Shown here one piece after another: positions 5,570 through 19,208 of a stretch of 64,000 bases of DNA. Numbering within the stretch: the stretch's first letter is position 1; each line of letters starts with the position of its first letter. The translations under genes and the position numbers were made by a program. The notes below the pieces were generated by a model. The model was not told the origin of the DNA, did no database searches, and saw nothing but the letters and a program-made list of their open reading frames with translations. The stretch is from Amorphoplanes digitatis (GTDB taxonomy: Bacteria > Actinomycetota > Actinomycetes > Mycobacteriales > Micromonosporaceae): positions 1,674,001-1,738,000 of the forward strand of contig NZ_JACHNH010000001.1 in the NCBI RefSeq assembly GCF_014205335.1. Reading direction: 5' to 3'.

Positions 5570-5863
5570 ATGAGCGGTGACGTGGACCCCGAGGTGAGCG
5601 CCCTGGCGATCAACGTCACGATCCCCGAGGAGCTCCGCTGGGCCGACACCCGGCGCGGTGTGGAGTTCATGCTGACCACGCTCAACGTCCGGCTGCTCAA
5701 GGACGGCAGCCTCGCGGCGAAGGCGTACGGCCGGCCGACCGCCGGTGGCCGCGGCGCCTACGTCTCGTTCACCGTGCCCGACCGGCCCGAGCTTGTTGCC
5801 CTGGTCGAGCGAGCCGCCGGCCGTGCCGGCGAGCTGTGGGCCGCGCACCGCGGTCTCGGCTGA
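5570..5863 (+). CDS. Small hypothetical protein (97 aa)
   Basis: A soluble 97-residue protein that I do not recognise. It contains a conserved-looking core, LAINVTIPEELRWADTRRGV, then GRPTAGGRGAYVSFTVPDRP and a basic alanine-rich C-terminal helix. There is no signal peptide, membrane span or Cys. The gene is divergent from the SpoIIAA-like gene with about 70 bases between the starts, and faces the secreted protein gene at 5939 across a large hairpin. Codon usage is strongly G/C at third positions, which supports real coding. Confidence 0.6.
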   Translation: MSGDVDPEVSALAINVTIPEELRWADTRRGVEFMLTTLNVRLLKDGSLAAKAYGRPTAGGRGAYVSFTVPDRPELVALVERAAGRAGELWAAHRGLG

Positions 5864-5870
5864 TCAGCGG

Positions 5871-5938
5871 CCGGCCCCGGCGCCCCATCGCCCCGCTCGG
5901 CCGGAGCCGGGCGGGTGCGATGGGTGCGGCGGGGTCGG
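5871..5938. terminator. Long imperfect hairpin between convergent genes
   Basis: The whole gap between the converging genes folds on itself: the GCCCCATCGC block at 5882-5891 pairs with the GCGATGGGTGC block near 5917-5927, with the outer GGCCCCGGC and GCGGGGTCGG pairing further. It fits a bidirectional terminator and lacks a T-run. Confidence 0.6.
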
Positions 5939-6352
5939 TCAGCCGATGCCGATGTTGTTGTGCGCCATGACCGGCCGGAACCAGCGGTTGCCGGAGAAGA
6001 TGGCGTCGTAGCCGTTCACCAGCAGGTTCGCCAGGGAGATCGGCGGCGGGATGGGCCCGTTGCGGCACTCGGCGACGCCGTTCCAGTCGGTGGTCGCCTC
6101 GCACATGAACCAGCGCTCGCCGGTGGTGACGAACGAGACCGGAAGACCCGGTACCGGGCGGCCGTCGAGGGTCGTGATCCGGGTCCGGAGGTTGAGGACC
6201 TCGCGGGCGATCACGTCCAGGGTGCCGTAGTAGGCGGTGGCGTGAAGCCGCTGCGGCGGCGGTTGTGCCCCGACGGCCTGGGCCGGGCTAGCAGTAGCGA
6301 CGCTTATGAGCGCCACGGCGATTGCGAGCAATCGCTTGATGGTTTGCTTCAT
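5939..6352 (-). CDS. Small secreted protein, possible Ig-like domain
   Basis: About 137 residues with a clear Sec signal peptide: KQTIKRLL, then an AVALISVATASPAQA hydrophobic and cleavage region. The mature part, about 108 residues, contains LDGRPVPGLPVSFVTTGERW, a pattern seen in bacterial Ig-like/invasin-type beta-sandwich modules, plus two cysteines in FMCEATTDWNGVAECRNG that could form a disulfide. No catalytic motif is visible. I placed the start at the second Met (6352), since it begins a standard signal peptide; an upstream Met at 6361 would add three residues. Confidence 0.6.
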   Translation of the reverse strand: MKQTIKRLLAIAVALISVATASPAQAVGAQPPPQRLHATAYYGTLDVIAREVLNLRTRITTLDGRPVPGLPVSFVTTGERWFMCEATTDWNGVAECRNGPIPPPISLANLLVNGYDAIFSGNRWFRPVMAHNNIGIG

Positions 6353-7005
6353 GGAGCACAAAGTAGGTGATTTGTCTGCCTAACAGGCACGGACACACCC
6401 AAGCGTGTTCAAATGCCCACCATCGGGTGTATTGGACATGTCACCGCCGCGCTCCGTCACCTGTTCGCCGGCCCGACACGCCGGGGTCCCGCCTCCGTGG
6501 CGGCGGCGAGGAGATGTCGCCGGGGTTGCCACGCTTCTACCCGGACGCATTGGTTGCCCCGGTCATTCGCTCGCTCCGGTAAATGCGAGGGGCTCGGCGA
6601 GAAGCGTGCCCGGAGGCTCCCGCAGGTTCGCGTGCCGCGCCCCTAATGGCAAAAAAGGGGAAGCGGGCGTGGCAACGGAGAAAGCGGCGGGCCAGGACGC
6701 GACCGGTCGCCTGCGGGCCGGTCCGACCACATTCGACACGGCGGCGAAAACACCATTCGCGTATGCACCGTCCATCCCGGTCGGAGCGGCTTGCGACGTA
6801 CTGCACTTACGCGGTGGTGAAACCCAACCGGGTGACCCGCTTGCAAGATCACCCTGCCGATGTCGCGTGTTCTACCTTGGACTGCGAAAGGTATGGTTAG
6901 CATCCCTGAAAGCGCATCCGCCGGCGATCGCGCATCGGTGAGTTCTGCGTTTTCGTGGCGGCTTTCCGGTCAAGCCGTCAACCGCACGCAAGCATGGGGA
7001 CATCA
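6353..7005. other. Gene-free 650-bp region upstream of the PKS gene
   Basis: The region is less GC-rich and has no convincing coding frame; open frames here have Cys-, His- and Arg-rich translations unlike neighbouring proteins. It holds a weak inverted repeat (TGTTCAA at 6406-6412, TTGGACA at 6432-6438) and a possible promoter just before the PKS gene (TTGGAC at 6877-6882, TAGCAT at 6898-6903, a short 15-base spacer). A regulatory leader for the biosynthetic gene is likely, but I cannot define it better. Confidence 0.4.
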
Positions 7006-10000
7006 GTGGACATTGCGATTGTCGGTCTTTCTTGCCGTTTTCCGGGTGCTCGTGACGTCGTGGAGTTCTGGGCGAACTCGTTGAACGCAGCTCATCAATT
7101 CCGGAGTGTTCCGTCCGCGCGATGGAATCACGAGACAGTTTTCTCAAACGATCGCCGGGATGCGCATTCCACCTACACCGACCGGGTGGCCTTCCTCGAC
7201 GGCGTCGAGAATTTCGCCGCCCTGCACCACCGGATTCCGCCCCGGCGCGCCAAGGCCATGGATCCCCAGCATCGCCTGCTCATCGACCTGGCCCGGGAGG
7301 CGGTGCAGGACGCCGGCTGGGAGCGGTCCGAGTTCGACCGGGCCACCACCGGGGTGTTCGTCGGCCTCAGCACGTCCGACTACTCGAACGTGGCAGCCGC
7401 GCGGGTCACCGCGATGATGCTGGCCGACGGGTCACTGTCGCCGGAGGCGTCCGACGCCGGGCTGCTCGGCGCGGTGGCGGAGGCGGCGGCGACGGCCGTC
7501 GACGCGCCGCAGTCCTTCTCGCTCGCCGGCTCGCTGCTCAACATGGGGCCGTGCACCGTCAGCGAGCTGCTCGACCTCGGCGGTCCCTCGTTCGCCGTCG
7601 ACGCGGCGTGTTCGTCCGCGCTCGTCGCGCTGCACCAGGCCGTCAATCACCTGCGGACCGGGTCGTGCAGCGCGGCGCTGGTCGGCGGGGTCTTCCTCAA
7701 CCTGACCCCCAACGCGCTCATCGGCTTCTCCCGCGTCGGCGCGCTGTCCGCCGCCGGGGTGTGCCGGCCCTTCGACGCCCGCGCTGACGGCTTCGTGCTC
7801 GGCGAGGGCGGGTCGCTCGCCGTGCTGCGCCCACTGCGCGACGCGGTCGCGGCCGGCGACCGGATCTACGCGGTGCTCAACGGCATCGGCACGGGCAACG
7901 ACGGCAAGGGCTCCGGGCCGATGACCCCGAGGGCCGAGGGCCAGGAGGCCGCGATGCGGGCCGCCTACCGGGACGCGGGCGTCACCCCGGGCGCCATCGA
8001 CTTCCTCGAGGCACACGGCACCGGCACGACGGTCGGCGACCGGGTCGAGATCGAGGCGGTACGGCGGCTGCGCGCGACGGGCGCCGCCGGGCGGCCCTGC
8101 TACCTGTCGTCCGGAAAGGCGATCATCGGGCACACCCTGCCGGCGGCCGGCGCCGCGGGCGTGCTGCGGACGGCGCTCGCGCTGCACCACCGCACCGTGC
8201 CGCCGCAGCCGGCCTTCACAGCGCACCCCGACCTGCCGCTCGCCGCGGCGGGGCTGGAGATCACCACCGAGGCCCGGGAGTGGCCGGAGGTACCGGACGA
8301 CTGCCGGCGCGCCGGCGTCAGCTCGTTCGGTTTCGGCGGCACCAACGTGCACGCCGTGCTCAGCGAGGCGTCCGATCAGCGGGAGCCCGTCGACGCTGAC
8401 CGGGGTGGCGACGACCGCCCGTGGCTCGTGCTGCTCTCCGCGGACACGCCCGACCTGCTGGCGGCGTACGCCGCACGGATGGCGACCGTCGTCGCCGACG
8501 ACGACACGATGACCCCCGCCGCCGTGGCCCGCACGATGGCCGGCCGCCTGCCGCTGCCCGCCCGCCTGGCCGTGATGTGCCGGAGCCGGACGGAGCTCGT
8601 CGACCGGCTCGTGGCCGCCGCGCGGGCGCTGGCCGCCGGCTCGCTCGGCCGGCTCGGGCCGGGCGTGTACGCCGGTGCGGCGCCGCTCCCGCCCGAGCAG
8701 CGCCGGCTCGCCTTCCTCTACCCGGGCCAGGGTTCGCTGCGGGCGGGCGTGCTGCGCGACCTGGTGGCCCGCTTCCCCGCGCTGGACCGGCACGTACGCC
8801 CGCTCACCGACCTGGTCGACCAGCGCACCGGCACCCCGGTCTCCAAGCTGCTGTGCGAGGAGCCCGGTCCGGACGCCGAGTCGGAGGTGAACGCGACCCG
8901 GATCTGCCAGCCCGCGCTCGGCGTCGCCGGGATTCCGATGACCCAGCTGCTCGCCGACTGCGGGGTGCTGCCGCTGGTGACGCTCGGGCACAGCGCCGGC
9001 GAGGTGGTCGCCGCCGTCGCCGCCGGTGCGCTGACGCCCGGCGACGGCATCGACTTCCTGGTCGACCGCGGCGCGGCCGTGACCGCCGGTGAGGAGCCGC
9101 CGCCCGGCGCCATGGCCGCGGTGAAGATCGGCCCGGCCGGGTTCGAGGAGCTGCGCCGGGGCATCGAGGGTGTCTGGGCCGGCTGCTACAACCATCCGTC
9201 GCAGACGGTGGCCAGCGGTCATCGGAAGGCGATCGCGCGCCTGCTGGAGCGGTGCCGTGACCGTGGCGTCCAGGCCGTGCCGCTGCGGGTGTCGCACGCG
9301 TTCCACTCGCCGCTGCTCGCCGGGGTCGACACCCTGGTGGCCGCGCACGCGGCCGAGCTGACGGTGCACAAGCCCGCGGTGAGGCTGGTGTCCAGCGTGG
9401 ACCCGAGCGCGGCGAGCGATCCGGAGACGCTGCGCGCACTGTGGAGCCGCCAGGGCTCCTCGCCCGTGCTGTTCCGCGACGCCGTCGACGTCGCGGTCGA
9501 CTCCGGCGCCGACATCCTGGTGCAGGTCTGCGCCGGGGACGCCCTGCTCGGCATGGCGGCGCAGACGCCCTCGGCCAAGGGGCTGGAGGCGATCGCGCTG
9601 ATGCCGGCGGAGCCCGACGACGGCTACGCGCTGCTCGAGGGGCTGGGCCGGCTGACCGTCGCCGGCGTGCCCGTGAATCTGATGCCGCTGTTCGCGGGGC
9701 TGCGGGTGCCCCTGCTGACCCTGCCGCCCACGCCGGTGGCGACCCAGCACTACTCGATCCGCCGTGGTGCCGGCGACGGTCGCCCGCGGCCGGCCGGCGC
9801 GCGTGCCGGCCGCCCGCCGGTGGCCGGGCCGGCGCAGCCCACCCGGATCGAGTCCCGTCCACCGGAGCGCGCCGCGCTTCCGGCCGTAACCAGGAATGGA
9901 GAGCGGACGTACATGAACGACGTCATCCTGCTGCTGCGGGAACAACTCGCTGCCCTGCAAAGCTTCAGCGCCGAGCCGCTGGAACACTATGCCGGCACCG

Positions 10001-11706
10001 GCATGCGGGACGTCACGCCGTCCTCCGCCGCGGGCTGCTCCCCGACGGCGGCCGTCGCCCGCCCGCCGGCCGCGCCGGAGCTGCCGGCCTCGCCCGCGAC
10101 GCGGGCGCCGGTGCCCGCGCAGAAGACGTCGCCGGTCGACGCCGGCCAGATCCTGACCGAGCTGGGCGTCATGGTGGGCCGGATCAGCGCCTACCCGCCG
10201 GACCTGGTGCGCGCGGAGCATTCGTTCGCCGCCGACCTGGGCTTCGACTCGATCATGAGTTCCGAGCTCACCGCGGCCGTGAAGCGCCGCTGGCCGCACG
10301 TGTCCCTCGACCCCGCGGACGTCTTCGGCATCACCACGGTCGGCGAGCTCGCCCAGGCGCTGGCCAAGGCACACGCGGGCGGTTCCGTGGCACCCGCGCC
10401 GCCGGTCGCCGAGGTCGCGCCGGTCGCACCGGCCGCGGAGTCCGGGCCGCGCCAGGTGTGGCCCGAGCCGCGCAGCGCCGAGGTCGCCGACGTGGCGTAC
10501 CTGCCCGAGGTCGTGGCGTTCCAGCAGCGCGGCGTGATGCTCGAGCGGCTACAGGTGGCCAACCCCTACTTCCTCGTGCACGACAGCGTGATCGACAGCC
10601 GGACCCGGGTCGGCGGGCGCCAGCTGATCTCCTTCTCCAGCTACAACTACCTCGGGCTGGCCGGGCACCCGGCCGTCGCGGAAGCGGTGAAGGACGCGGT
10701 CGACCGGTACGGCTCCTCGGTGTCCGCGGCGCGGATCCTGTCCGGCAACCGTGCCCTGCACGACGAGCTGGACCAGGCCCTTGCCGACCTGGTCGGCGCG
10801 GAGGACGCGATCACGCTGATCGGCGGGCACTCCACGAACGTCAGCGTGATCGGCCACCTGGTCGGCCCGGACGACCTGATCGTGCACGACGCCCTCGCGC
10901 ACGACAGCATCCTCCAGGGCTGCCGCCTCTCCGGCGCGAGCCGCCAGCCGTTCCCGCACCAGAACCTGGACGCGCTCGACGCGATGCTCGGGCAGATCCG
11001 CGACCGCTACCGCCGCGTGCTGATCGTGGTCGAGGGCGTGTACAGCATGGACGGCGACATCTGCGAGCTGCCGGCGCTCATCGCGCTCAAGAAGCGGCAC
11101 GGTGCCCTGCTCATGGTGGACGAGGCGCACAGCATCGGGGTGCTCGGCGCGGGCGGTGGCGGCGTCGGTGAGCACTTCGGTGTCGACCGCGGCGACGTCG
11201 ACGTGTGGATGGGCACGCTGTCGAAGTCGCTGGCGAGCTGCGGCGGCTACGTGGCCGGCCGGCACGAGCTGATCGAGTACCTGCGGTACACACTGCCGGG
11301 CTTCATCTTCAGCGCCGGGATGAGCCCGGCGAACGCCGCGGCGGCCCTGGCCGCGATGCGGATCTTCTGCGCGGAGCCGCAGCGGCTGGCCCGGTTGCAC
11401 GACCGCGCCGCCCTGTTCCTGCGCCTCGCCCGTGAGGCCGGCATCGACGTCGGCACCAGCGCGGGCACGCCGGTGATCCCGTGCATCACCGGCGACTCCG
11501 TCAAGGCGCTGCGGCTCTCCGACACGCTGCTCAAGAACGGCGTCAGCGCCAACCCGATCCTGTACCCGGCGGTCAAGGAGGAGCTGGCGCGGCTGCGGTT
11601 CTTCGTCACCGCCGAGCACAGCCCGGAGGACATCGAGACCACCGTCGACCTTCTGGCCCGCAACCTCGACCCGGCGTGCCAGGCCATCGTGCCGCAACCG
11701 GCATGA
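7006..11706 (+). CDS. KS-AT-ACP-alpha-oxoamine synthase fusion polyketide synthase
   Basis: A single protein of about 1566 residues. The ketosynthase spans roughly residues 1-440, with active-site Cys202 in DAACSSA and both His motifs (EAHGTGT and IIGHTLPAAG). The acyltransferase, about 540-880, has Ser663 in GHSAGE and the malonyl-type motif HAFH. The acyl carrier domain is around 1040-1120, with phosphopantetheine Ser1082 in LGFDSIMSSEL. The C-terminal PLP-dependent alpha-oxoamine synthase is about 1200-1560, with SSYNYLGLAG, DEAHSIGVLG and Schiff-base Lys1407 in GTLSKSLASCGGY. There is no KR, DH, ER or thioesterase. Known oxoamine synthases release an acyl chain by decarboxylative condensation with an amino acid, so the inferred product is an amino-diketone able to cyclise to a hydroxypyrrole-like ring. 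GTG 7006 has GGGGA five bases upstream; ATG 6994 and GTG 6955 are alternatives. Confidence 0.88.
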   Translation: MDIAIVGLSCRFPGARDVVEFWANSLNAAHQFRSVPSARWNHETVFSNDRRDAHSTYTDRVAFLDGVENFAALHHRIPPRRAKAMDPQHRLLIDLAREAVQDAGWERSEFDRATTGVFVGLSTSDYSNVAAARVTAMMLADGSLSPEASDAGLLGAVAEAAATAVDAPQSFSLAGSLLNMGPCTVSELLDLGGPSFAVDAACSSALVALHQAVNHLRTGSCSAALVGGVFLNLTPNALIGFSRVGALSAAGVCRPFDARADGFVLGEGGSLAVLRPLRDAVAAGDRIYAVLNGIGTGNDGKGSGPMTPRAEGQEAAMRAAYRDAGVTPGAIDFLEAHGTGTTVGDRVEIEAVRRLRATGAAGRPCYLSSGKAIIGHTLPAAGAAGVLRTALALHHRTVPPQPAFTAHPDLPLAAAGLEITTEAREWPEVPDDCRRAGVSSFGFGGTNVHAVLSEASDQREPVDADRGGDDRPWLVLLSADTPDLLAAYAARMATVVADDDTMTPAAVARTMAGRLPLPARLAVMCRSRTELVDRLVAAARALAAGSLGRLGPGVYAGAAPLPPEQRRLAFLYPGQGSLRAGVLRDLVARFPALDRHVRPLTDLVDQRTGTPVSKLLCEEPGPDAESEVNATRICQPALGVAGIPMTQLLADCGVLPLVTLGHSAGEVVAAVAAGALTPGDGIDFLVDRGAAVTAGEEPPPGAMAAVKIGPAGFEELRRGIEGVWAGCYNHPSQTVASGHRKAIARLLERCRDRGVQAVPLRVSHAFHSPLLAGVDTLVAAHAAELTVHKPAVRLVSSVDPSAASDPETLRALWSRQGSSPVLFRDAVDVAVDSGADILVQVCAGDALLGMAAQTPSAKGLEAIALMPAEPDDGYALLEGLGRLTVAGVPVNLMPLFAGLRVPLLTLPPTPVATQHYSIRRGAGDGRPRPAGARAGRPPVAGPAQPTRIESRPPERAALPAVTRNGERTYMNDVILLLREQLAALQSFSAEPLEHYAGTGMRDVTPSSAAGCSPTAAVARPPAAPELPASPATRAPVPAQKTSPVDAGQILTELGVMVGRISAYPPDLVRAEHSFAADLGFDSIMSSELTAAVKRRWPHVSLDPADVFGITTVGELAQALAKAHAGGSVAPAPPVAEVAPVAPAAESGPRQVWPEPRSAEVADVAYLPEVVAFQQRGVMLERLQVANPYFLVHDSVIDSRTRVGGRQLISFSSYNYLGLAGHPAVAEAVKDAVDRYGSSVSAARILSGNRALHDELDQALADLVGAEDAITLIGGHSTNVSVIGHLVGPDDLIVHDALAHDSILQGCRLSGASRQPFPHQNLDALDAMLGQIRDRYRRVLIVVEGVYSMDGDICELPALIALKKRHGALLMVDEAHSIGVLGAGGGGVGEHFGVDRGDVDVWMGTLSKSLASCGGYVAGRHELIEYLRYTLPGFIFSAGMSPANAAAALAAMRIFCAEPQRLARLHDRAALFLRLAREAGIDVGTSAGTPVIPCITGDSVKALRLSDTLLKNGVSANPILYPAVKEELARLRFFVTAEHSPEDIETTVDLLARNLDPACQAIVPQPA
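9893..9915 (+). promoter_or_regulatory. Internal ribosome binding site and start inside the PKS gene
   Basis: At the linker between the AT and ACP domains, GGAGAG (9898-9903) stands nine bases before an in-frame ATG (9913). Translation from there would begin MNDVILLLREQLAALQ and produce a free ACP-oxoamine synthase of about 597 residues. The surrounding linker is low in conserved residues, as expected at a fusion joint. Confidence 0.45.
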
Positions 11707-11737
11707 CCCGCGGCCTCCTTCGCAGATTGCGCCTGAC

Positions 11738-13984
11738 ATGACCCCTGTGAAATCTCCGCCGACCCGGGCCGCCCGGCCCGACGGGGTCACCACCCGCGGC
11801 CCGGGCACCGGCACGGTACTGCCGTTCGTCGCCCGCCGCCCGAAGCTGGTCATCCTCGCCGCGCTGCTGCTGGCGGCGCTGGCGGTCGCCTTCAGCGGCG
11901 ACGTGGTCGGCGCGCTGAAGACCGGCGGCTTCGACGACGTCAACTCGGACGCGGTGCGGGGGAGGGCGGTGCTCGCCGAGCACTTCCGCGGTGCCGACCC
12001 GAACCTCGTCATCCTGGTCGAGAAGCCGGGCGGCAGCGCGTTCGACACCGACGCGGGCGACGCGGCGCGGCGGGTCGTCCGGCGCCTCGCGATGACGCCC
12101 GAGGCGAGCATCGTCGGCGTGTACTGGGACGACATGCTGCCGCAGCTGGTCAACCGGGCCGGCGACCGGGGCATGATCCTGGTGCACGTTGACGGCGACG
12201 AGGACCAGAGCATGCAGCGGGTCGAGCGCCTGCACGAGGACCTGGCCGGCACGACCGGCGCGGTGCGGGTGTCCTTCGGCGGCCTGACGCAGATCAACAA
12301 CGACATCGCCGATCAGGTGACGGAGGACCTGGCCCGGGCCGAGTCCATCGCGATCCCGATCACCCTGCTGTTGCTGCTGCTGGTCTTCGGCACCGTCTGG
12401 GCGGCCGGCGCCCCGCTGCTGATCGGCATCTTCTCGATCGTCATGACCCTCGGGGTGTTGCGGCTGCTGGCCGTCTTCACCGACGTGTCCGTCTTCTCGG
12501 TCAACATGGCGACGGCGCTGGGCCTCGGCCTGGCCGTCGACTACAGCCTGCTCTTCGTCTCGCGCTACCGGGAGCAACGCGGCCGGGACAAGGACATCAT
12601 CTCCGCGCTCGGCGTCACCATGCGTACCGCCGGCCGGACGATCCTGTTCAGCGCGGCCACCGTCGCGGTGGCGCTGTGCAGCCTGCTGGTCTTCCCGCAG
12701 TACTTCCTGCGCTCGTTCGCGTACGCCGGAATCGCCGTCGTCATGGCGACCGTCGGCGCCGCGCTGCTGGTGCTGCCGGCCCTGCTCGTGCTGCTCGGTG
12801 ACCGCATCGACAAGTGGCCGGTGTGGCCCCGGAACCGGACGGCCGGCGGCGACACCGCGTTCTGGGGCCGGGTCGCCGGTCACGTGATGCGCCGCCCGGC
12901 GCTGACGGCGGCGCCGGTCGTGCTCGTGCTGCTGGTTCTCGCGCTGCCGTTCACCCACGTGGGTTTCGGCGTCGCCGACGACCGGGTGCTGCCCAAGCAC
13001 GCGGAGAGCCGGACGGTCGCCGACTCGATCCGGGGCGAGTTCGGCGGTACCGGGAACGGCGCCGCCGTCATCGTCGCGGAGCACTGGGGGCACGGGCCGG
13101 AGGCCGTCATCCGGGCCGCCGACTACGCCACCCGGCTCTCCCGCATCCCGGGGGTACAGCGGGTCGACAGCATGGCCGGCTCGTTCGGCGGCGGCACCGC
13201 GGTCGTCACGGCCGCGCCGCCCATGGCCTTCATCGCCGGCGAGACGGCCTGGTTCTCGGTGCTCAGCAACCTCGAGCCGTACTCGGACGCCGGCGCCGAC
13301 CTGGCCCGCGCCCTTCGCGCCGCGCCGGTGCCGCAGGGCGTACCCGTGCTGGTCACCGGGCTGGCCGCGCAGCTTGTCGACATGACCGGCTCGATCGGTG
13401 ACCGGTTGCCCGTCGCGCTGGTGCTGATCGCCTGCACCACGTTCGCGCTGCTGTTCCTGCTGACCGGGAGCGTGCTGTTGCCGATCAAGGCGCTGGTGCT
13501 GAACCTGCTGACGATGAGCGCCGTCTTCGGGGTCGCCGTCTGGGTCTTCCAGGACGGTCATCTCTCCGGCGTCCTGGGCCATACCGCGACGCCGCTGGCG
13601 GTGGCCATGCCGGTGCTGCTGTTCTGCGTCGCGTTCGGACTGTCGATGGACTACGAGGTCTTCGTGCTCTCGCGGATCATCGAACGGCACGGCCAGGGCG
13701 CCGATCTGCACACCTCGGTCGTCGACGGCTTGTCCCGCAGCGGGCGGGTGATCAGCGCCGCCGCGGCGATCCTGTCGGTGTCGTTCCTGGCCATGCTGTC
13801 GTCCGGGGTGTCGTTCATCCAGTTCTTCGGCCTGTGCGCCAGCCTCGCGATCATCCTCGACGCGCTGCTGGTACGCCCGGTGCTGGTGCCCGCCCTGATG
13901 CGGCTGGCCGGGCGCTGGAACTGGTGGGCACCGCGGCCGCTGCGCGCGCTGCACGACCGGCTCGGGCTGCGGGAGCAGTCGTGA
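11738..13984 (+). CDS. MmpL/RND-family transporter
   Basis: A 748-residue membrane protein of the MMPL family, which exports lipids and other hydrophobic metabolites using the proton gradient. It has two halves. Each consists of one membrane helix, a large extracytoplasmic loop and five clustered helices. The family motifs are GLGLAVDYSLLFVSRYREQ in the first half and AFGLSMDYEVFVLSRI in the second; the Asp-Tyr pairs correspond to the proton-relay positions of MmpL proteins. It starts 31 bases after the PKS-oxoamine synthase gene on the same strand, so the two are probably one transcript and the protein likely exports the product of that enzyme. The C-terminus lacks the long tail of mycobacterial MmpL3. 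Confidence 0.85.
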   Translation: MTPVKSPPTRAARPDGVTTRGPGTGTVLPFVARRPKLVILAALLLAALAVAFSGDVVGALKTGGFDDVNSDAVRGRAVLAEHFRGADPNLVILVEKPGGSAFDTDAGDAARRVVRRLAMTPEASIVGVYWDDMLPQLVNRAGDRGMILVHVDGDEDQSMQRVERLHEDLAGTTGAVRVSFGGLTQINNDIADQVTEDLARAESIAIPITLLLLLLVFGTVWAAGAPLLIGIFSIVMTLGVLRLLAVFTDVSVFSVNMATALGLGLAVDYSLLFVSRYREQRGRDKDIISALGVTMRTAGRTILFSAATVAVALCSLLVFPQYFLRSFAYAGIAVVMATVGAALLVLPALLVLLGDRIDKWPVWPRNRTAGGDTAFWGRVAGHVMRRPALTAAPVVLVLLVLALPFTHVGFGVADDRVLPKHAESRTVADSIRGEFGGTGNGAAVIVAEHWGHGPEAVIRAADYATRLSRIPGVQRVDSMAGSFGGGTAVVTAAPPMAFIAGETAWFSVLSNLEPYSDAGADLARALRAAPVPQGVPVLVTGLAAQLVDMTGSIGDRLPVALVLIACTTFALLFLLTGSVLLPIKALVLNLLTMSAVFGVAVWVFQDGHLSGVLGHTATPLAVAMPVLLFCVAFGLSMDYEVFVLSRIIERHGQGADLHTSVVDGLSRSGRVISAAAAILSVSFLAMLSSGVSFIQFFGLCASLAIILDALLVRPVLVPALMRLAGRWNWWAPRPLRALHDRLGLREQS

Positions 13985-14041: not shown

Positions 14042-14077
14042 TTGTCTTGGTGTGCGTAGAAACCTAGCGTCACACCA
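14042..14077 (+). promoter_or_regulatory. Promoter of the DUF2855 gene, predicted leaderless
   Basis: TTGTCT (14042-14047) and TAGCGT (14065-14070) are separated by 17 bases. The predicted start of transcription falls on the ATG at 14077, so the mRNA would have no leader, consistent with the absence of a Shine-Dalgarno there. Confidence 0.5.
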
Positions 14078-15144
14078 TGCCTGCTTCCTGGACGTTCGCC
14101 GTGGCCCGCGACGACCTCGGCGAGACAACGCTCATCGAGGGCGAGACGCCCGCGCTGGCCGACGGGGAGGCTCTGCTGCGGGTGGACCGCGTCGGCCTCA
14201 CCGCCAACAACGTGACCTACGCGGTGCTCGGCGAGTCGATGCGGTACTGGCAGTTCTTCCCGCCCGGGGCGTTCGGGCTCGGGCCGGGCTGGGGGCTGCC
14301 GCCGCTGTGGGGCTTCGCCGAGGTGGCGGCGTCGACGGTGCCGGGCGTCGCGGTGGGCCTGCGGGTCTACGGCTACTTCCCGTCCGCCGGGCACCTGGTG
14401 GTGCGGCCGGACCGGGTGGACGCCTCCGGGTTCCGCGACGCGAGCGCGCACCGGGCCGACCTGCCGTCGCCGTACAACGTGTACCGGGCGACGACCGGCG
14501 ACCCGGCGTACCGGCCGGACGCCGAGGACCTGCTTGTCCTGTTCCGGCCGCTCTTCTTCACCTCCTTCATGCTGGCCGACCAGGTCATCGACGAGGACTA
14601 CTACGGCGCGCGGGCACTGGTGCTGTCGTCGGCGTCCAGCAAGACCGCCTACGCCGCCGCGTTCGAGCTGCACGGCCGCGGCCCGCGCCTGGTCGGGCTC
14701 ACCTCGCGCGGCAACGTCGAGTTCACCCGGTCGCTCGGCTGCTACGACGACGTCGTCGCCTACGACGAGATCGGCGACCTCGACGAGGTGCCGACGGCGT
14801 ATCTCGACCTGTCCGGCGCGCCGGCGACCCGGGCCGCCCTGCGGCGGCGCCTCGGCGACCTGCTGGTGCGCGATGTCGCGGTCGGGCTCACCAACCAGAT
14901 CCCGAACATGGACGCCGCCGGGGAGTTCTTCTTCGCGCCGGTACGGATGCGCAAGCGCCGCGAGGAGTGGGGCCGTGACGAGCTCGACCGGCGGTTCGCC
15001 GAGGCCTGGCAGCGGTTCGCCGACGTCGTCGGCGGGTGGCTCGACGTCCGGGTCGGCACCGGGCCCGACGCCCTGCGGCAGGCGTGGCTGGAGGTCCTGC
15101 GGGGCCACACGCCGCCGCGGGTCGGCCAGGTCGTCCAGCTCTGA
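14077..15144 (+). CDS. DUF2855 family protein (MDR-like fold)
   Basis: A 355-residue protein matching the DUF2855 family, which resembles zinc-free medium-chain dehydrogenases: an N-terminal GroES-like part (LRVDRVGLTANNVTYAVLGE, GFAEVAAS), and a Rossmann-like half with VLSSASSKTAYAAAFELHGR and the conserved stretch NMDAAGEFFFAPVRMRKRR. Family function is unknown. It follows the MmpL gene on the same strand but has its own promoter and a terminator-like hairpin in front. Membership in the polyketide locus is therefore possible but unproven. Confidence 0.75.
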   Translation: MPASWTFAVARDDLGETTLIEGETPALADGEALLRVDRVGLTANNVTYAVLGESMRYWQFFPPGAFGLGPGWGLPPLWGFAEVAASTVPGVAVGLRVYGYFPSAGHLVVRPDRVDASGFRDASAHRADLPSPYNVYRATTGDPAYRPDAEDLLVLFRPLFFTSFMLADQVIDEDYYGARALVLSSASSKTAYAAAFELHGRGPRLVGLTSRGNVEFTRSLGCYDDVVAYDEIGDLDEVPTAYLDLSGAPATRAALRRRLGDLLVRDVAVGLTNQIPNMDAAGEFFFAPVRMRKRREEWGRDELDRRFAEAWQRFADVVGGWLDVRVGTGPDALRQAWLEVLRGHTPPRVGQVVQL

Positions 15145-16144: not shown

Positions 16145-18205
16145 CTAGTCCGACTTCGGCGAGGGTTGCGGCCCGCAGAGCGACAGGATCGCGCCGAGCA
16201 GCGTCGAGCGGGTGAACGGCTTCTCCACCAGCATGCTGTTCTCGTCCAGGTGCAGCTGCGGGCCGAGCGACGCGGCCGTGTAGCCCGACATGTAGAGCAC
16301 CGGCAGGTCCGGGTGGTGGGTGCGCAGCGCGGCGGCCAGCTCGGGCCCGGTCATCGTCGGCATCACCACGTCGGTGATCAGCAGGTCCGGCTGCGCGCCC
16401 GAGGCCACCTCGGTGACCGCGGTGAGCGCGTCCGTCGCCACCGTGATCTCGTAGCCGGCCGGCGCGATCAGCCGCTGCACCAGCTGGGCCACCTCGGGCT
16501 GGTCCTCGACGATCAGCACCCGGCCGATCACCGCCGGCTTGGTCCGCCGGTCGACACCGGCGCGCTGTTCGGCCGCGGGCAGGTACAGGTGCACGGTCGT
16601 GCCCATTCGCGGCTCCGACTCCAGCTCGATGTGCCCGCCGATGCCCTTCACGATGCCGGCGGTCGTGGCCAGGCCCAGGCCGGCGGCGGTGGGCCGGGTG
16701 GTGAAGAACGGCTCCAGCGCCCGCTTGCGGGTCTCGTCGGTCATGCCGACCCCGGTGTCCTGGATGACCATGTGCACGAGGCGGCCGTTCGGCGCGTCCT
16801 CGGCGAGCTGACCCGGCTCGATCACCTCGTTGGTCGCCGCCACCCGCAGCATCCCGCCGTGCAGCATCGCGTCGCGGGCGTTCGCCGCCAGGTTCACCAG
16901 CGCCTGCTCCAGCGGGCCGCGCTCCGCCCGTACCGGCCAGACGTCGGGGCCGAACGCCAGGTCGAGGCCGATGCGCTCGCCCAGCGTACGGCTGAAGAGG
17001 CTCTGCACGTCGGTGAGCAGGTCCGGGATCGGGATGATCTCGGGCCGGTTGCCCTCGGTCCGGCCGAAGGCCAGGAGCTGGTGTGTCAGGGTCCGCCCGG
17101 TGTTGACCGCCTCCATGATGTCCTCGGCCATCCGGTGCTGCGGCGAGTCCTCGGGGGTGGTTGTGGCGATCATGTCGGCGGAGCCCTGCACGACGGTCAT
17201 CAGGTTGTTGAAGTCGTGCGAGATGCCGCCGATGAGCTGGCCCATGCTGTCGAGCCGGCGCAGGTGGTCGAGCTGGCGCTTGAGGCCGCGCGCGTCGATG
17301 TGGTCGGTCGTGTCGGTGATCATGCAGAGCACGTGGCCGTGCTGGCCGTGCTCGTCGTCAAGCGGCATCATGCTCATCCGCACGCTGCGCTGCGAGCCGT
17401 CGGCGCGCATCAGCCGGGTCGCGCCGACCGTCGAGCGGCCCGCCCGGCACTCGGCGAGGCGGCGCATCAGCTCACGCTGGCCGTGGTCGTCGAGGAAGCC
17501 GCGCAGCGAGACCCCGATCAGCTGGGCCCGGGGCAGGCCCAGGACGACGCCGATCGGCTCGTTCGCGTACGTGGCGACGCCCTCGTCGTCGAGCTGGAGC
17601 ACGCCCTCCGGGATGGTCTCCAGGACCCGGCGGTAGCGCTCCTCGCTGGCCCGCAGCCGCTCCTGTGCCCGGGCCGAGGACAGCGCCAGCGACAGCTCAC
17701 CGGCGATGTCGCGGGCCAGCTCGACCTCGGCCTCGGTGTAGATCGCGCCGGGGGTGCCCCGGACCACCACCAGGTAGCCCGCGTAGGTGTTGTCGACGAT
17801 GACCGGGCAGAGCACGGCCGCGTGGACGGCGGCCGGCCGGGCGCCCGGCTCGGCGCCGGCCGGCGGCCGGAACAGCTCGGTGAGCGGCTCGGTGCCCTCG
17901 CCGGCCAGCACGACCGGACGGCGGCTCGCGGCCAGCCCGGTCGAGAAGTCGTCGTCGGGCAGCTCACCCTCGCGGTCGAGCAGCCCGGCGTACGGCGCGC
18001 GGAGCCCATCATCGGGATGATGGAACGTGATCGCGTCGTAACGGCCGTCCTCGCGCAGCAGCTGGATCCCGGCACCGTCGCCGACCATGTCGGCGGCGGC
18101 CTGCGCCGCGGTGGCACGGATCTTGGCCACGTCCTCGGCTGCCCGGCTGAGGGCCAGCGCCAAGTCGGCCAACGCGTACCGGAGGGGATATGCCATGACA
18201 CCCAT
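16145..18205 (-). CDS. Hybrid sensor histidine kinase (GAF-PAS-HisKA-HATPase-REC)
   Basis: A soluble protein of about 686 residues. A GAF domain lies around residues 10-180. A PAS domain follows, about 190-310 (RYRRVLETIPEGVLQLDDEG). The HisKA H-box is GGISHDFNNL with phospho-acceptor His330. The catalytic ATPase domain has N-box NLAANARDAM and G-boxes DTGVGM and GLGLATTAGIV. The C-terminal receiver domain carries phosphorylatable Asp612 in LLITDVVMP and the conserved Lys in VEKPF. No separate response regulator gene is adjacent, so signalling may run through the receiver to a distant partner. The frame extends to 18268, but the Met at 18205 (or 18196) is a better start than the Arg-rich upstream part. 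The ligand sensed by GAF or PAS cannot be read from the sequence. Confidence 0.85.
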   Translation of the reverse strand: MGVMAYPLRYALADLALALSRAAEDVAKIRATAAQAAADMVGDGAGIQLLREDGRYDAITFHHPDDGLRAPYAGLLDREGELPDDDFSTGLAASRRPVVLAGEGTEPLTELFRPPAGAEPGARPAAVHAAVLCPVIVDNTYAGYLVVVRGTPGAIYTEAEVELARDIAGELSLALSSARAQERLRASEERYRRVLETIPEGVLQLDDEGVATYANEPIGVVLGLPRAQLIGVSLRGFLDDHGQRELMRRLAECRAGRSTVGATRLMRADGSQRSVRMSMMPLDDEHGQHGHVLCMITDTTDHIDARGLKRQLDHLRRLDSMGQLIGGISHDFNNLMTVVQGSADMIATTTPEDSPQHRMAEDIMEAVNTGRTLTHQLLAFGRTEGNRPEIIPIPDLLTDVQSLFSRTLGERIGLDLAFGPDVWPVRAERGPLEQALVNLAANARDAMLHGGMLRVAATNEVIEPGQLAEDAPNGRLVHMVIQDTGVGMTDETRKRALEPFFTTRPTAAGLGLATTAGIVKGIGGHIELESEPRMGTTVHLYLPAAEQRAGVDRRTKPAVIGRVLIVEDQPEVAQLVQRLIAPAGYEITVATDALTAVTEVASGAQPDLLITDVVMPTMTGPELAAALRTHHPDLPVLYMSGYTAASLGPQLHLDENSMLVEKPFTRSTLLGAILSLCGPQPSPKSD

Positions 18206-18272
18206 GCAGTTCACTATCTGCAATAGCGAGGTGCGGCGCGGGCGTTTCCCCTCAATGCAACCGACCACCCGG

Positions 18273-19208
18273 TCAAGCCGTGGCGAACCAGCGCTCGGCG
18301 AGCGACTCGAACGTGGGCTCGGCCGGGGCGGGCAGCCGTTTCAGGTACGCGCCCAGGTTGCTGTAGTAATGCAGCAACGTCCAGGCCATCAGTCGCCGCC
18401 GCAGTTCCCGGTCCGGCTCGATCCCGTACGCCCGCAGCATCCGGCCGTAGAAGCGCCCGTCGCCGTTCGCGAGGAACACGGCGGGCCCGACGAAGTCGTA
18501 CTCGGCGGCGCCGCGCATGGCCGGCTCGAAGTCGATCAGCCCGGTCAGCCGGCCGTCGGCGACCAGCAGGTGCTCGTCGAGGATCTCGGTGTGCAGCAGC
18601 ACGGGCGTCTCCGCGCCGAGCGGCACCTCGGCGAGGAAGGACGGTATCTGGGCGACCCAGGCCGGGCCGAGCCCGAGCGCCCGCTGCCGGCCGGCGCACC
18701 CGCTCGCCTGGTCGCCGACGAACTCGGCCCAGTCGGCGGGCCACCACTCGTCGATCTCGGGTACGGCGAGGGCGTGCAGGGCGGCGATCGCCGCGCCGAG
18801 CTGATCGGCCAGGGCGTCCCGCTCGGGCGCGGCGAGGCCCGGCCAGACAGAGGAGAGCGGCACGCCGGGCATCCGGTCCATCAGGACGTAGCCCCACCGC
18901 TCGAAGCTCCCGGTGGCGTGCACGGCGGGCGTCGGCACCGGGAGGCGGCCGTGCACCGCCGCCAGGACCCCGGCCTCCACCGGCAGCTCGTCGACGTGCA
19001 CCGGCGGGAAGAGCTTCAGGACCAGGTCGCCGACGGCGTAGACGGGAAGTGATCCGGTCGGGTAGCGCGACGCGGCACCGGTGACGCCGAGCGACGCGCA
19101 GAGGGCGCGGACGCCGGGGCCGAGCGCCTCCTCGTCGCGGGCGACGAAGTCGAAATCCTCCTCGTCGTCGGCGCATGGCCAGACCGTGTCGACGTTTTCC
19201 CTGGTCAA
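18273..19208 (-). CDS. Aminoglycoside phosphotransferase (APH)-like protein
   Basis: A protein of about 311 residues with the APH/choline-kinase fold: nucleotide-lobe strands (LPVYAVGDLVLKLFPP with the ATP-anchoring Lys), WGYVLMDRMPGVPL hinge, and a catalytic loop LLHTEILDEHLLV followed by LIDFEPAMRG. The usual Brenner motif HGDLHPGN is altered to HTEILDEH, so the catalytic Asp and Asn positions are non-canonical. The frame is open to 19439, but a TTG at 19208 preceded by AGGTGGAG with a five-base spacer gives a good start and removes an unlikely leader. Substrate is unknown; true antibiotic resistance is not implied. Confidence 0.7.
   Translation of the reverse strand: MTRENVDTVWPCADDEEDFDFVARDEEALGPGVRALCASLGVTGAASRYPTGSLPVYAVGDLVLKLFPPVHVDELPVEAGVLAAVHGRLPVPTPAVHATGSFERWGYVLMDRMPGVPLSSVWPGLAAPERDALADQLGAAIAALHALAVPEIDEWWPADWAEFVGDQASGCAGRQRALGLGPAWVAQIPSFLAEVPLGAETPVLLHTEILDEHLLVADGRLTGLIDFEPAMRGAAEYDFVGPAVFLANGDGRFYGRMLRAYGIEPDRELRRRLMAWTLLHYYSNLGAYLKRLPAPAEPTFESLAERWFATA

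Follow-up and report, generated by a model that had tools for sequence, protein, structure and literature searches.

The window (the whole 64-kb stretch of DNA that was analysed, at 1,674,001-1,738,000 of a 9.13 Mb source genome in one contig) encodes a single-module polyketide synthase with ketosynthase (KS), acyltransferase (AT), acyl carrier protein (ACP) and PLP-dependent alpha-oxoamine synthase (AOS) domains in one protein, followed by the gene for an MmpL transporter with which it is co-inherited. The closest characterised analogue of the synthase is RedL, not RedN/PigH as the first-pass annotation had proposed, the AOS tree placing RedL inside and RedN outside the clade to which the window domain belongs. 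Arguing by analogy, and with little more than even confidence, we propose that the genes form a self-contained mini-pathway in which one malonyl extension would be followed by decarboxylative off-loading with an amino acid, ring closure and MmpL-mediated export.

The synthase gene and its neighbours

As the first-pass annotation had it, a single KS-AT-ACP-AOS protein without a reducing domain or thioesterase is present, and the MmpL gene starts 31 bases past its stop codon (Table 1). Pfam scores are 228 bits for the ketoacyl synthase, 130 for the acyltransferase, 155 for Aminotran_1_2 and 33.8 for PP-binding (cut-off 20.8). No KR, DH, ER or TE, and no product template, cyclase or aromatase domain, is among the Pfam families listed for the protein. 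The catalytic residues reported earlier were all recovered with the numbering shifted by +17, such that KS Cys202 becomes Cys219, ACP Ser1082 becomes Ser1099 and AOS Lys1407 becomes Lys1424. Across 121 aligned sequences (the window protein, its own database record and 119 relatives among the best 120 of 3656 matches), KS Cys219, His354, Lys388 and His393, AT Ser680 and His784, ACP Ser1099, and AOS His1316, Asp1389, His1392, Lys1424 and Arg1548 are invariant (121/121). The KS and AT active residues, whose absence had been named beforehand as grounds for giving up the reading, are intact, and the first His of the HAFH motif (781-784) is the one that varies among the relatives (79 His, 37 Asn, 5 other). 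The GHSAG and HAFH motifs are those of a malonyl-type AT.

Table 1. Features of the synthase region, in window coordinates
Feature	Position	Strand	Remarks
Small Ig-like protein gene	5939..6361	-	Divergent from synthase; start Met probably 6352
PKS-AOS protein, KS-AT-ACP-AOS	6955..11706	+	1583 aa from GTG 6955 (ORF reading, Pfam, protein search, alignment)
Alternative PKS-AOS starts	ATG 6994, GTG 7006	+	GTG 7006 has GGGGA upstream
Ketosynthase domain	7009..8364	+	Residues ~19-470; Cys219, His354, Lys388, His393 (Pfam, alignment, KS tree)
KS extra stretch	7390..7536	+	Residues ~146-194, upstream of the active-site Cys
Acyltransferase domain	8713..9615	+	GHSAG (Ser680), HAFH (781-784); motifs read as malonyl-type
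Acyl carrier protein domain	10180..10362	+	Phosphopantetheine Ser1099
PLP-dependent alpha-oxoamine synthase domain	10558..11661	+	His1316, Asp1389, His1392, Lys1424, Arg1548; selectivity position Ala1259
MmpL transporter, MmpL3-like	11738..13984	+	748 aa; Pfam MMPL 244.5 bits; Asp-Tyr pairs in both halves (GLAVDYSLLF, GLSMDYEVF)

The KS is distinguished by the stretch before its active-site Cys, which is ~32-35 residues longer than in CurL or PksL in the alignments and of similar length in all 13 rows displayed, two of which are the window's own protein. A seemingly high match of the synthase to structure 7zma arises from summing two KS copies in the alignments and is not a sign of closeness.

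The transporter belongs to the MMPL/RND superfamily, having MMPL domains and both Asp-Tyr pairs of the proton relay. Its best solved match is the trehalose monomycolate exporter MmpL3 (7nvh, 317 bits, nearly full length in two pieces), but it is shorter than full-length MmpL3, is linked to a PKS and scores 370.1 bits against the MmpL3 NCBIfam equivalog, below the cut-off of 1400. A DUF2855 gene (14077-15144) was considered as a third pathway gene and rejected; it has no match beside the 15 other Actinoplanes copies of the module, and a weak terminator-like site lies between.

The divergent Ig-like gene encodes a small protein that is apparently secreted (signal peptide recognised by eye), with a weak Big_1 match below the Pfam cut-off and an AlphaFold model that is strand-rich and of low confidence (mean pLDDT 53). 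Its alignment from 16 loci has a mean column identity of 84% (two rows truncated), and the gene is found in exactly the 16 of 67 Actinoplanes genomes that hold a synthase of the window type and in 0/51 others at E 1e-5; no counterpart was noted beside the other loci in the domain map (61 loci). The Ig-like, PKS-AOS and MmpL genes occur together in three surroundings: one in the window, a second in L071-L073 and L085, where the same gene follows MmpL, and a third in L074-L084. In the draft L074 the synthase and MmpL matches are each in two pieces. The unit conserved in Actinoplanes therefore consists of these three genes, one more than the two-gene pathway originally described.

Distribution of the module and inheritance of the exporter

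The protein search scored 7990 candidates, of which 3656 pass E 1e-30, and the best 120 of these 3656 all have KS, AT and Aminotran_1_2. Given these matches, the shared domains and the residues invariant throughout the alignment, the KS-AT-ACP-AOS architecture is not a product of chance. Among the best 120 of 3656, named relatives from Actinoplanes are 71-93% identical, and those from Streptomyces, Kitasatospora, Kibdelosporangium, Kutzneria, Frankia and Protofrankia ~46-70% (the upper end of this range coming from alignments of partial coverage); their database names are 'type I PKS' or '8-amino-7-oxononanoate synthase'. An ACP-AOS match is present in 17/394 genomes of the class sample at E 1e-95 (own genome included), in 17/67 genomes of the genus sample (own included; 16 of the window type and one, G449, AT-less), and in 95/392 Streptomyces genomes at E 1e-70, a count that takes in stand-alone AOS, RedL and RedN types. 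The architecture is widespread in actinomycetes, and it is the divergent KS lineage and the co-inherited MmpL that set the module apart.

We compared 76 loci, comprising all 18 non-own match places of the class sample, all 16 of Actinoplanes, 40 picked from 131 Streptomyces match rows, and L016 and L017; the counts hold for these loci, not for genera at large, and the domain map covers 61 of them. L009-L015 lie on the same contigs as seven Actinoplanes loci and are counted once. Class A (KS-AT-ACP-AOS as in the window) has 15 Actinoplanes and 29 other loci, in one of which (L123) the domain map found neither KS nor AT. Class B (KS-ACP-AOS; 9 loci, with Pfam confirming one, L141) lacks a recognisable AT and so would need malonate from an AT acting in trans. 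Class C is the RedL type (10 loci, L142 verified), class D combines KS-AT-ACP-AOS with a separate FAAL-like ligase (3 loci), and class E joins an AOS to a reducing-type PKS (7 loci, with Pfam reducing domains in L016 and L053 and the rest assigned by size and spacing). Three loci (L042, L050, L051) fall outside these classes.

Several of these loci have distinctive neighbours. Class B loci (L045, L046, L086, L138-L141, L153, L154) are accompanied by HTH and ImmA-like (M78) genes in 9/9 and a TetR gene in 8/9, and in class D (L043, L044, L047) the stand-alone FAAL-like ligase corresponds to the loading part of RedL as a separate gene. At 5832-8531 on the minus strand, L042 encodes a protein of 899 aa, one part of which is an acyl ligase and another appears by eye to be aldehyde-dehydrogenase-like; it adjoins the PKS-AOS and an MFS transporter. 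The loci of one subclade (L037, at 17847-19007, L115, L116, L039 and L048) have an FMN-binding oxidoreductase of Acg type adjoining the MmpL or the synthase; the two that were scanned score below the family cut-off. A PPTase gene follows the synthase in 15/29 non-Actinoplanes class A loci.

We scored an MmpL gene as linked if it matched at > 200 bits and lay <= 4 kb from the synthase. Such a gene is present at all 15 Actinoplanes loci besides the window and at 20 of the remaining 29 class A loci, compared with 0/9 in class B, 0/10 RedL loci, 0/3 in class D and 1/7 in class E. For 20/29 against 0/19 Fisher's test gives p 6e-7, which is a guide only since related loci are not independent. Actinoplanes and L048 have the MmpL gene downstream of the synthase, most MmpL-bearing Streptomyces loci have it upstream, and in L037, L115 and L116 the two genes diverge with a TetR gene between them. 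In a quick MmpL tree (5/15 Actinoplanes kept) the class A-linked transporters form one clade of 26 (SH-aLRT 99) apart from the own-genome paralogues, and its subgroups resemble those of the AOS and KS trees without matching them exactly. Outside class A, the L054 MmpL is 34% identical and groups with an own-genome paralogue, and that of L047 is distant.

That the MmpL is there by accident or serves envelope maintenance, the product being kept in the cell or used further, is distinctly unlikely. Nine of the 29 non-Actinoplanes class A loci do have no MmpL within the stretch examined (four of these stretches are < 20 kb and end with their contigs), and the exporter is thus not kept everywhere. 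Against this, the linkage persists across three gene orders, the linked transporters cluster together with subgroups near those of the synthase domains, and the own-genome paralogues are <= 40% identical to the window MmpL as against 45-60% for class A-linked MmpLs of other genera. Like the domains, the catalytic residues and the AOS clade, the co-inheritance of synthase and MmpL is established from sequence.

Ancestry of the AOS and KS domains

The AOS tree comprises 104 domains, of which 86 are from the loci, one is from the window, 14 are stand-alone rows (unclassified) and three are solved structures (two SPTs and ThAOS). The window domain groups with those of Actinoplanes (16 rows, 100/99), and four Streptomyces-type rows join this group next (20 rows, 100/98). 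A larger clade of 74 rows (100/100) contains classes A-D, L042, L050 and L051, the SgaAB-like L016 and L017, the reducing L053 and L054, and the window. Within it the RedL domains (10 rows, 100/99) are sister to the other 64 with moderate support (90/89). The 74-row clade excludes the two SPTs and ThAOS, the RedN domains, the stand-alone rows and the reducing L150-L152; long branches in several reference rows make relations among these outsiders unsure.

We give almost no weight to the possibility that a housekeeping enzyme of BioF/KBL type, or an aminotransferase, was joined to the synthase by accident as its C-terminal domain. BioF is the best NCBIfam score (342.7, below its cut-off of 426.45), and several database relatives among the best 120 of 3656 carry the 8-amino-7-oxononanoate synthase name. 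However, the tree built to follow up the first-pass annotation gives no BioF placement, the domain lying inside the PKS-linked clade, which includes neither ThAOS nor the stand-alone AOS rows. More generally, it is not among the stand-alone AOS (SPT, BioF, KBL) in the tree and passes no curated NCBIfam cut-off, and the window's genome has a further AOS elsewhere, in a frame of 392 aa.

The RedL label is anchored by L142, which its RedH identifies as a prodiginine cluster (RedH equivalog 1646 bits, cut-off 1350) and which has AMP-ligase-ACP-KS-AT-AOS in one ORF (the second ACP below Pfam listing). The RedL loci were found through two AOS matches several kb apart, and the other nine rows are labelled by layout, with two AOS and a ligase as in L142. 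A RedX/PigJ family search returned 0/246 at a strict E-value and also none in 14 control genomes, and hence gives no evidence of absence.

The KS tells a different story from the AOS. The tree built from 70 KS domains (5/15 Actinoplanes kept; loci lacking a KS piece that covers 75% are not represented) is divided by a branch with 100/100 support. Classes A and B, L042 and L047 (45 rows) fall to one side of it, and to the other fall RedL, L043 and L044, the reducing and Sga-like PKSs and seven further KS domains from the window's genome. That genome also encodes very large PKS frames of 9028 and 10610 aa at 2.20-2.31 Mb (G000:C1). L043 and L044 have an AOS close to class A and a KS on the RedL side, and constraining their KS domains to group with classes A and B and L042 is rejected (p-AU 3e-6; the group was picked after viewing the AOS tree, and L047 was excluded). 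This conflict indicates that the two halves have recombined and that the window protein cannot be described as RedL stripped of its loading part. Amino-acid off-loading domains have been recombined with different ketosynthases.

Proposed pathway and comparison with known systems

The AOS position that bears on amino-acid choice (PMC11906848) is Ala in 16/16 Actinoplanes proteins and Ser 22, Ala 6 and gap 1 in the other class A proteins. It is Ser in 9/9 of class B, 3/3 of class D, 2/2 Sga-like and 10/10 RedN domains, and Thr in 10/10 RedL domains. ALAS, a glycine enzyme, has Thr at this position (PMC11906848 and PMC4525017). With the V79T variant of ThAOS only alanine was accepted (PMC11906848), and Thr therefore provides no simple glycine rule. 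The Ala or Ser of the window-type proteins tips the balance slightly towards serine or alanine and away from glycine. A hydroxypyrrole product, as originally put forward, keeps its conditional standing; the selectivity residue hints at serine or alanine and hence at RedN-like chemistry, but descent from RedN is not part of it.

The original logic of one extension, amino-acid release and export fits the evidence, and it is from the domain content and these comparisons that we infer the starter, the single extension, the amino acid, the cyclisation and the export. The KS would take an acyl starter made elsewhere, probably a fatty acyl group from primary metabolism. FAAL, PPTase, TetR and TE genes of the related loci have no counterpart in the 64-kb window (tblastn; FAAL-like at E 1e-3), and as no loading ligase or carrier is present we propose that the starter is loaded straight onto the KS. 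The AT would charge the ACP with malonate, and a single round of decarboxylative extension would give an unreduced beta-ketoacyl-ACP. The PLP domain would then condense this thioester with a small amino acid, serine or alanine being likelier than glycine, with loss of CO2, an off-loading step that would stand in for a thioesterase. In the resulting alpha-amino-beta'-diketone the amine could attack the distal ketone to form a 3-pyrrolinone or 3-hydroxypyrrole, as in the RedL reaction, and the amphiphilic product would be exported by the adjoining MmpL.

The missing KR is compatible with iteration without reduction or with reduction in trans, and does not thereby prove a single extension. Single-module synthases often iterate, and the window synthase is itself a single module without reducing domains; iterative, unreduced action of KS-AT-ACP could give a poly-beta-ketone that the AOS would release as an acyl-pyrrole, pyrone or aromatic amine. 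We regard this as quite improbable, as no product template, cyclase or aromatase domain is listed, and as RedL, the closest characterised analogue, off-loads its chain by decarboxylative condensation with an amino acid after a single extension (PMC11188435, a review).

A sphingoid-like aminolipid is unlikely, though several observations are in keeping with it. Fatty-acid enzymes acting in trans could reduce the chain, or the KS could merely hand over an acyl group, such that the AOS and serine would give a 3-ketosphinganine-like base and the MmpL would export an envelope lipid. An SgaB-like AOS lies in the same clade, the selectivity position is Ala or Ser, the exporter is MmpL3-like, and PKS-derived sphingolipids exist (PMC12134224). 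On the other hand, the PKS of the SgaAB-like L016 has its own DH, ER and KR, and the window protein has none of these.

The flanking genes bear on the same question. In 11/15 Actinoplanes (L074-L084) the module is flanked by genes for a desaturase, a CDP-alcohol phosphatidyltransferase, an acyl-CoA synthetase and a PMT-like protein, with a two-component system beside the desaturase; 10 of these 11 stretches also have a FAD/GMC-type gene. We considered these lipid genes as parts of a phospho-aminolipid pathway and rejected this, as the window's genome keeps most of them elsewhere without a PKS. At 1275.5-1295.4 kb (G000:C1) it has homologues of the phosphatidyltransferase (55%), acyl-CoA synthetase (77%), desaturase (77%) and two-component system (67% and 84%), with no KS or AOS match in that interval, and a phosphatidyltransferase homologue is found in 44/67 genomes of the genus at E 1e-90. 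The lipid genes are thus genus background that does not vouch for the function of the module, which we treat as inserted into a pre-existing lipid-gene neighbourhood.

The mini-pathway with one extension and ring closure remains our preferred reading. A more far-reaching version, which we offer as doubtful, is that these are widespread and overlooked actinomycete aminoketide lipids, made by a mosaic single-module synthase with a RedL/Sga-clade AOS and a KS lineage of its own. The co-inherited MmpL would export a serine- or alanine-derived alkyl-pyrrolinone or aminodiketone, and a dedicated Ig-like partner, secreted in Actinoplanes, would carry it, anchor it or give protection against it outside the cell. 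We found no product of a KS-AT-ACP-AOS and MmpL module in the open-access literature, which is not proof of absence. The module represents a small, complete-looking pathway common to many actinomycetes (two genes, or three in Actinoplanes), and it offers a compact system for testing AOS action on an ACP-bound beta-ketone, amino-acid choice, and MmpL cargo outside mycobacteria.

Among known systems, SxtA of saxitoxin biosynthesis has an ACP followed by a C-terminal AOS, with no KS and with N-terminal methyltransferase and GNAT-like domains; Pfam lists none of the latter in the window protein. RedN/PigH is a carrier-AOS fusion without KS or AT whose substrates are a beta-ketothioester and serine (PMC11188435 and PMC3870968). 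Its AOS is outside the PKS-linked clade, and RedN is 34-41% identical to the window ACP-AOS as against 46-51% for RedL-type rows. In SgaAB of Pseudomonas fluorescens, SgaB uses serine to off-load a chain built by an iterative PKS (PMC12134224). Judged from the SgaAB-like L016 and L017, not from the published protein, this AOS is of the same clade as that of the window, but it is a separate protein, the L016 PKS is a reducing one, and neither locus has a linked MmpL. As SgaB acts with serine on a PKS chain and the L016 PKS is reducing, a beta-keto substrate is not readable from the clade alone.

RedL, in undecylprodiginine biosynthesis of Streptomyces, is closer. It sits in a prodiginine cluster without a linked MmpL (0/10), and no prodiginine genes were seen around the window synthase (Pfam; neighbouring genes between 0.6 and 22.6 kb). 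RedL begins with a ligase-ACP loading part, for which Pfam lists no equivalent in the window protein, its KS belongs to the other lineage (split 100/100), and it has Thr where the window-type proteins have Ala or Ser. Its second half nonetheless has the same KS-AT-ACP-AOS order, with an AOS of the same clade. With its different KS lineage and no loading ligase, the window synthase is thus not RedL but a mosaic cousin of it.
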